A model generated the notes under the pieces. That model worked only from the letters and a program-made list of their open reading frames with translations. It was not told the DNA's origin and did not search any database. This document shows positions 8,105-9,421 of a stretch of 21,564 bases of DNA, piece after piece; within the stretch, counting starts at the first letter, position 1, and each line of letters opens with the position of its first letter. Made by a program: the position numbers and the translations under genes. The stretch is from a virus: the IMG/VR virus record IMGVR_UViG_3300035698_022414, positions 1 to 21,564 of that record; one strand, given 5' to 3'.

Positions 8105-9421
8105 ATGAGTAGGGAACTTAAAGCTAAGTACAATTTGAGTAAAGTTGATGTTGTCGAAATCGCACTGGCTGGGATTCCGGCTGTTCCAAGTGCCACTTTC
8201 GCTATTATGAAATCGGCGGACGTACCTGATGGCAAAGAACCAATCATCAAATCCAATTCAACAAAGCTTTTCAAGGTTGATGAAGTCAAAAAGCAGGTCA
8301 TGGGATACGTTCTTGTCCCGGACACGCCTGACCTCCAGGGTGATGTTGTCTCGAAGGAGGATGTCGAAAAGGCTGCTCATTCATACTTAACGAATGGGTT
8401 CTCAGGTGATGCCAAAAGCAAGGGGACTTCCACTAACCATGACATCTTCAAAGACATCGGAACACCAATAGAAAGTGCTATCGACACTGATGGTTCTATC
8501 GGTAAATCTGCTGGTGTGGACGGTGTGTCTGGTGGTTGGTGGGTCGGTATCCAGATTGAAAAAGATGAGACCTGGACACAGATAGAAAAGGGTGAGTTCA
8601 CGGGATTCTCTATTGGCGGATTTGGTGTACGAACTCCGGTAGAAGGATCGGTTGAGAAAACAAGCAATGAAAGCGCATTCACAAAAGTACTGAATGCTGT
8701 CACAACCCTGATCAACAAAGGTGAAGGAGACGCGGTCTCATTTGATGAAGCACGGGCAGAACAAGACAACAGGGACAAGCTCTGGGGTATGTTCGGTTCG
8801 CTTGAGCGGTCGGTTTACTCAGTGCTTGATGACAAGGATGTAGATAATAAGCAGGATGCAATCGCGGCATCGATTGATCAATTCAAGGCGGCCATGGTTG
8901 CTTTTGTGGCGGTCAGTAAAGCGATATCGGACAAACGTAACTCCAACAACGAACTACTCGAAAAGCTCAGTGTGGCTGTTGAGCCAGTACAGAAACTGAG
9001 TGATTTACTCAATAAGATAACTATCCAGGAATCAATATCGAAGTCAGGAGGCAGTGAAATGTCAATGGAAGAGCAAGTTAAGGAATTGACAAAAACCGTT
9101 GAGGGTCTTGTCGGGCGTGTAGATAAGGCGGAGGAAGCGAATAAGGTCAGCACGGATACTGCCCAAAAGAAAACAGAGGACGAGGGCGCAGTTAAGAAAA
9201 CAGAGAACGAGCAGATTGCTACCACCCTCGAGACCTTGACGAAGACAGTAGGCGACCTCTCCGCACGCTTAACGAAGTTCGAGGAAACACCCGGTACACG
9301 CTCAGGAGATGAGCCAGACGGGACACCCGAAGACGTGACCAAAAACATGACCAAGGAGCAGAAGGAAGAATACCAGGAGAAACAGTTAGCCAGTAGGTTT
9401 GTCTTCGGAGGTTCGGAGTAG
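8105..9421 (+). CDS. XkdF-like prohead protease with C-terminal scaffold region
   Basis: This 438-residue protein resembles XkdF-type putative serine proteases that mature phage proheads. Residues 1-35 show the leader V-E-I-A-L-A-G-I-P-A-V-P-S-A. The protease core spans about 62-175: G-Y-V-L-V-P-D-T-P-D-L-Q-G-D-V-V, then T-N-H-D (H112), then G-E-F-T-G-F-S-I-G-G (S169). H112 and S169 are the likely catalytic pair by comparison with the family. Residues about 200-315 are a helical linker. Residues 319-438 are a charged, coiled-coil-rich segment typical of scaffolding proteins, ending V-F-G-G-S-E. The core sits directly upstream of the major capsid gene, as in other HK97-fold phages. GAGGA lies just before the start, overlapping the previous stop. 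The scaffold part also appears to be made separately. Confidence 0.85.
   Translation: MSRELKAKYNLSKVDVVEIALAGIPAVPSATFAIMKSADVPDGKEPIIKSNSTKLFKVDEVKKQVMGYVLVPDTPDLQGDVVSKEDVEKAAHSYLTNGFSGDAKSKGTSTNHDIFKDIGTPIESAIDTDGSIGKSAGVDGVSGGWWVGIQIEKDETWTQIEKGEFTGFSIGGFGVRTPVEGSVEKTSNESAFTKVLNAVTTLINKGEGDAVSFDEARAEQDNRDKLWGMFGSLERSVYSVLDDKDVDNKQDAIAASIDQFKAAMVAFVAVSKAISDKRNSNNELLEKLSVAVEPVQKLSDLLNKITIQESISKSGGSEMSMEEQVKELTKTVEGLVGRVDKAEEANKVSTDTAQKKTEDEGAVKKTENEQIATTLETLTKTVGDLSARLTKFEETPGTRSGDEPDGTPEDVTKNMTKEQKEEYQEKQLASRFVFGGSE
9046..9061 (+). promoter_or_regulatory. Internal ribosome binding site inside protease gene
   Basis: A perfect AGGAGG (9046-9051) lies 7 nt before an in-frame ATG (9059-9061), deep inside the protease gene. 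Strength and spacing equal or exceed those of most true starts in this window, such as AGGAGG before 5184 and 14551. Confidence 0.7.
9059..9421 (+). CDS. Predicted nested scaffolding protein (in-frame internal start)
   Basis: This 120-residue product shares frame and stop codon with the protease gene. It begins M-S-M-E-E-Q-V-K-E-L and is composed almost wholly of Lys, Glu, Asp, Thr and Ala with heptad-like leucines (E-L-T-K-T-V-E-G-L, then T-L-E-T-L-T-K-T-V-G-D-L), followed by an acidic Gly/Pro linker and a short hydrophobic-basic tail. That composition matches phage scaffolds, which direct capsid shell assembly and are then removed by the protease. The model is lambda C/Nu3, where the scaffold is the independently started C-terminal part of the protease. 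No other scaffold gene lies between protease and capsid, which supports the call. It is a prediction from the start site and composition. Confidence 0.65.
   Translation: MSMEEQVKELTKTVEGLVGRVDKAEEANKVSTDTAQKKTEDEGAVKKTENEQIATTLETLTKTVGDLSARLTKFEETPGTRSGDEPDGTPEDVTKNMTKEQKEEYQEKQLASRFVFGGSE

Follow-up and report, generated by a model that had tools for sequence, protein, structure and literature searches.

The question raised by this locus is whether the head-protease gene found in a viral DNA stretch of 21,564 nucleotides, referred to as the window (IMG/VR virus record IMGVR_UViG_3300035698_022414, positions 1 to 21,564), also encodes a second, shorter protein that is translated in the same frame from a ribosome site of its own, as was claimed in an original prediction made from this DNA alone. 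Very probably it does, such that the last third of the head-protease gene doubles as a second gene, which makes a small helical scaffold protein. The site of the window is no proof by itself, and it is the comparison of aligned relatives that lifts it far above chance.

The protease gene of the window and its internal start site

The open reading frame (ORF) at 8105-9421 (plus strand, 438 codons open) encodes a full-length product of 438 aa and 47.3 kDa, which is described here as an XkdF-type head maturation protease with a putative C-terminal scaffold region. The XkdF-type assignment, also made in the original prediction, agrees with a significant profile match across the catalytic domain: the PF14550 "XkdF" profile matches residues 53-176 (E 1.6e-24, 86.8 bits vs a cut-off of 24), and the phrog_3017 "head maturation protease" profile matches residues 30-415 (E 5.4e-33). 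The protein has an N-terminal module (8129-8212, plus strand), seen in the alignment as VVEIALAGIPAVPSATFAIMK and in relatives as VSxVDKAANxxxF..K, with a strand at residues 9-23 in the structural model. It is followed by the protease domain Peptidase_S78_2 (8261-8632, plus strand), in which H112, G167 and S169 are invariant; H112 and S169, unchanged in all 53 relatives compared, are the candidate catalytic histidine and serine. Several records of Lactococcus phages (among them KX456206, KX456209 and KX456213) label XkdF-type proteases "DNA methyltransferase", and a methyltransferase label is also borne by phrog_1530, a profile that matches the window's protease domain; this label is probably a propagated misannotation.

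In the AlphaFold2 model of the full-length protein, a linker predicted to be disordered (residues 301-319, 9005-9061 on the plus strand, pLDDT <50) lies just 5' of the nested start, and helices are predicted at residues 321-351, 360-394 and 417-433. Similar helices (residues 3-34, 46-76 and 99-117 of the short product) are obtained when the nested product is modeled alone; the confidence of these helix models is modest, with a mean pLDDT of 66-67. A fold search of the PDB with the full-length model gave no significant match (best E 0.26).

The internal Shine-Dalgarno (SD) sequence AGGAGG is at 9046-9051, and after a 7-nt spacer (CAGTGAA) it is followed by the in-frame ATG at 9059-9061 (codon 319), all on the plus strand and precisely where the original prediction had placed them. 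The putative nested scaffold gene, 9059-9421 (plus strand), encodes 120 aa (13.3 kDa), and its product, described as charged and coiled-coil-rich in the original prediction, is acidic (pI 4.7), having 27 D/E and 18 K/R residues. The product is only distantly similar to the nested products of the wider family: in a small targeted search, a profile built from those products matches it at E 4.3e-5.

The strength claimed for the site is also seen in the window, where pairing with the 16S tail gives a duplex energy of -10.3 kcal/mol at the nested start vs -5.8 kcal/mol at the gene's own start. ATG 9059 is the sole internal ATG, out of seven in the gene, that has an SD of at least 5 nt, and it ties for fourth best (counted as fifth) in duplex energy among the 433 ATGs of the window. 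The notion that the nested site is always stronger than the main start is rejected as a general rule, the main candidate having the lower energy in 37 of 42 relatives, a comparison in which the main start has an advantage, being the best among several candidates. When synonymous codons are shuffled with the protein and the codon use preserved, the site of the window alone is weak, with p about 0.15 at ATG 9059, and about 0.19 (ATG) or 0.28 (ATG/GTG/TTG) anywhere in the C-terminal part. The original prediction was right about the presence of the site, and the evidence from this single window (p 0.15-0.28) is weaker than it implied.

The closest relatives found, L136/L137 (43-45% identity, depending on the alignment) and L138 (39-40%), have the site at the aligned place, so that the refutation named in the original prediction, a lack of the SD-ATG pair in relatives, is not borne out. 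In L136 it reads GGAGG-CGAGGAC-ATG, the GGAGG-7-ATG spacing being shared with L137, and in L138 it reads AAGGAG-ATAACACA-ATG (AAGGAG-8-ATG), so that L138 retains both SD and ATG although its SD is encoded through other codons and residues. A Fisher combination of the window, L136 and L138 (p 0.15, 0.03 and 0.27) reaches only about 0.04. A search of the viral_contigs for close relatives, using the window protein or the capsid protein, found none. Distant relatives were reached via phage records and alignments; an alignment across all eight distant proteins is too divergent to serve as a search query.

The gene for the major capsid protein (XkdG type, 9480-10736 on the plus strand), the presumed client of the scaffold, starts 61 nt past the protease stop, with no separate scaffold gene in between, as had been stated originally. 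The capsid protein matches phrog_1623 (E 1.7e-32) and its own capsid profile (3.8e-110, the window itself being among the seeds of that profile). A small ORF 3' of the capsid gene (10746-11156) has a C-terminal helix-hairpin-helix domain (HHH_5, E 2e-7). Elsewhere in the window, a fibre-like ORF of 1591 aa (1-4776) lies upstream of a MuF-like head gene, where a fibre gene is not usually expected; it has a BNR_4 match at its start, just under the Pfam cut-off, and imperfect 84-nt repeats at 2378-2617. The last ORF (20993-21564) probably starts at ATG 21038, which is preceded by GGAGG with a 6-nt spacer, and not at the listed upstream TTG 20993.

Conservation of the nested start in the XkdF family

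The family was sampled as 59 non-redundant complete genes that have the C-terminal region, taken from phage records, genomes and viral contigs. An SD of at least 6 nt followed by an in-frame start is present in the C-terminal part of 41 of these 59 genes, compared with 15.1 expected from protein-preserving recoding (z 9.0), and the protease domain of these genes shows no excess (3 observed, 3.4 expected). The position of the start was subsequently located, with further genomes added, by a protein profile built without the start residue and without any DNA. In the column obtained in this way, 43 of 48 non-redundant rows, from diverse Bacillota-type relatives, have ATG (19), GTG (18) or TTG (6). 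Where the residue is valine the codon is always GTG (background 22%, p 1.7e-12), and where it is leucine the codon is always TTG (background 19%, p 5e-5). Four of the other five rows align to a second copy of a repeat motif, and in these the nested start lies further upstream or, for L033, at an earlier position like that of PBP180; the fifth, L174, has AGGAGG-5-ATG located elsewhere. The same picture of the start column is obtained from the 29 rows that lie outside the seeds and near-seeds of the profile.

The geometry of the site is also preserved, with an 8-nt spacer in 30 of the 39 cases having an SD of at least 5 nt. On the tree of the protease domain, the start codon has changed between ATG, GTG and TTG a minimum of 14 times. 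Of the 30 glutamates in the SD core, 29 are encoded by GAG (background 0.30, p 1.3e-14), and adjacent glutamate codons are unbiased. Members without a clear SD are few and include L156 and L151. In a Bacillus spizizenii genome the PBSX-type gene has AAGGAG-9-ATG, from which 91 aa would be made. Beyond the rows of the start column, PBP180-like prophages share AGGTG-5-ATG; the haloviruses HHTV-2 and HCTV-2 share, together with L150, an aligned SD and ATG (GGAGG-8-ATG); and the methanogen viruses psiM100 and psiM2, together with L152, have GGAGGTGA/GAGGTGA-4-GTG/ATG/ATG in register. Within the protease ORF, HHTV-2 has SD-ATG sites at 247 and at 143 aa from the end, and HCTV-2 at 241 and at 138 aa; such pairs of sites hint at two nested products, conservation in register being observed for the second site only.

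The sequence comparisons strongly support nested initiation across the XkdF family, and the feature, which was originally presented for the phage of the window, is present there as a property of the whole family and is not specific to this phage. It could be argued that an internal SD is a translational pause, aiding the folding of the protease before the C-terminal helices are made, without any second protein, since an SD just past a folded domain could slow the ribosomes and the site is within the disordered linker. Pausing would not require a start codon, and this explanation is made very improbable by the restriction of the aligned position to three start codons, with the exclusive use of GTG and TTG for their residues, by the switches of lineages among these codons and by a spacer that is fixed in most cases. 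Just as improbable is that an SD and an ATG occur by chance in a stretch rich in Glu and Lys, with only the full-length fusion being made and acting as its own scaffold. The codons of Lys-Glu-Glu and Gly-Gly often give AGGAGG, and the p values of the single gene are unimpressive; nevertheless, z is still 9 under a recoding null that takes the amino acids into account, and neither the synonymous choice in the SD core nor the GTG/TTG exclusivity at the aligned start codon fits with chance, which is rejected on these family statistics. The conservation of the start-codon column together with that of the SD therefore points to a translation start, as neither pausing nor chance explains it.

Gene order, split loci and the role of the short product

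The capsid gene starts between -53 and +191 nt from the protease stop in 58 of 59 fused loci, and therefore there is no space for an intervening scaffold gene. In the split loci L142, L146, L148, L144 and L159, the protease ORF stops right after the protease domain, and a separate ORF of 163-239 aa precedes the capsid gene, which starts 504-718 nt downstream. These stand-alone ORFs are homologous to the nested product in L142 (E 4e-20), L146 (E 2e-15) and L159 (E 2e-14), and the similarity is weak in L148 and L144; the stand-alone ORF of L142 also matches the C-terminal part of phrog_3017 (E 1.5e-30). The region corresponding to the nested product is therefore a separate gene in these loci, at the place of a scaffold. 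SD starts are also present inside the stand-alone ORFs of L142, L144, L148 and L159. The profile of the N-terminal module matches the non-protease ORFs of split loci, where the module VSxVD[KR]xAN...F..K heads the scaffold ORF and not the protease (L142:3353-3907, L163:3347-4303 and others), and therefore the protease domain looks as if it has been inserted between the module and the scaffold helices.

By analogy, the short product would be a scaffold, because of its position, its helical coiled-coil character, the lack of another scaffold gene and its stand-alone homologues in split loci. Of the nested scaffold gene that was originally proposed, the start is supported by conservation in the family, and the scaffold role would follow from this analogy. 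It is less likely, although not as improbable as a pause or a chance site, that the short product is made and has another function, for example as a regulator or inhibitor of the protease or in assembling the portal or the tail; proteins that are helical and acidic serve many functions, and the short and full-length proteins share the C-terminal part only. The location directly before the capsid gene in nearly all fused loci, with no other scaffold gene, argues against such a function, as do the homologues that hold the same place once the protease is split off and the precedents of lambda and Mu.

The preferred reading is a two-product model of protease and scaffold, in which nested initiation, a bulk scaffold, co-assembly of the protease and digestion are combined, and its probability is put at about 0.78. 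One late-gene mRNA would be translated into two proteins in a single frame. Initiation at 8105 would give the 47-kDa protein, consisting of the protease domain, a helical middle and the scaffold region, and independent initiation at 9059, via AGGAGG, would give the 13-kDa scaffold region by itself, in many copies. This short protein would be the bulk scaffold, organising the capsid subunits (gene at 9480) into a procapsid, and the long protein would co-assemble via the shared C-terminal helices, such that a few protease molecules are carried inside. After assembly, the protease would digest the scaffold and the capsid would mature. The site, the conserved SD and start codon, the gene order and the homologous stand-alone ORFs are the parts of this model seen directly in the sequences; that the short protein is abundant, serves in scaffolding and is digested by the protease is suggested by analogy with lambda C/Nu3 and Mu I/Z.

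A wider proposal, put forward tentatively and at somewhat less than even odds, is that the nested start is ancestral and near-universal in the XkdF-type head modules of bacterial and archaeal viruses. The protease domain would have been inserted into, or split from, a scaffold gene with the order N-terminal VSxVDKAAN module, nested start and coiled coil, and fused and split genes would both make long and short scaffold forms. The nested scaffold gene of the preferred reading would supply the missing scaffold for many phages and prophages, including Bacillus PBSX-type elements and archaeal viruses, none of which has one annotated. It would also be a further conserved gene, overlooked by annotation pipelines because it is in frame inside another gene. 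The fused and split forms offer a natural experiment on the coupling of protease and scaffold, and PBSX of Bacillus subtilis 168 would allow a sharp and cheap test.

Comparison with known protease and scaffold genes

Nested in-frame protease and scaffold genes are already known from lambda C/Nu3 and Mu I/Z. What appears to be undescribed is the conserved nested start in the XkdF (PF14550) family, from Lactococcus and Bacillus prophages to archaeal viruses, and the splitting off of the protease with the scaffold gene left behind. A search of the open-access literature found the Mu/PaMx73 and lambda precedents and nothing on XkdF, and a tblastn search of phage records with three nested or split products found no record annotating a nested gene. 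The window protein is a member of the PBSX/XkdF-type proteases (PF14550, phrog_3017), for which the database records examined annotate a single long protein only, several of them as DNA methyltransferase.

The lambda protease has a ClpP/S49-like fold, and the Mu protease belongs to a family different from the XkdF type. The resemblance to lambda noted in the original prediction holds for the arrangement, with a conserved in-frame SD start in the 3' region of the protease gene, a scaffold (putative in the window) with its own start and the capsid gene next to it, beside the head genes; the window protease is unlike lambda C in being a PF14550 XkdF protein, and no sequence kinship is demonstrated. 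The overlap of C and Nu3 is cited in PMC8508860. The window protease gene is also like Mu I/Z and the Pseudomonas Mu-like phage PaMx73 in having an in-frame start for a scaffold (putative in the window) inside it; for Mu this start is described in PMC4378225, and for PaMx73 the same source gives a putative GTG start (Val177) with an SD, its sections on Mu and PaMx73 making no mention of XkdF-type genes.

In HK97 there is no separate scaffold, and the first 102 residues of the capsid protein serve as one (PMC8508860). The window is like HK97 in having the protease gene directly before the capsid gene, and unlike it when considering the capsid protein: the XkdG-type capsid proteins of the relatives are mostly 302-345 aa, which leaves no space for a delta domain of about 100 residues, and the phrog_1623 match of the window capsid protein begins at residue 37 (profile position 24), so that an HK97-type N-terminal extension of this size is seen neither in the lengths of the relatives nor in the start of the window match. 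A protease-scaffold with a nested scaffold-only product is also found in the herpesvirus pair UL26/UL26.5, where the short product is made from its own transcript, whereas the short product of the window is proposed to be made from an internal ribosome site.
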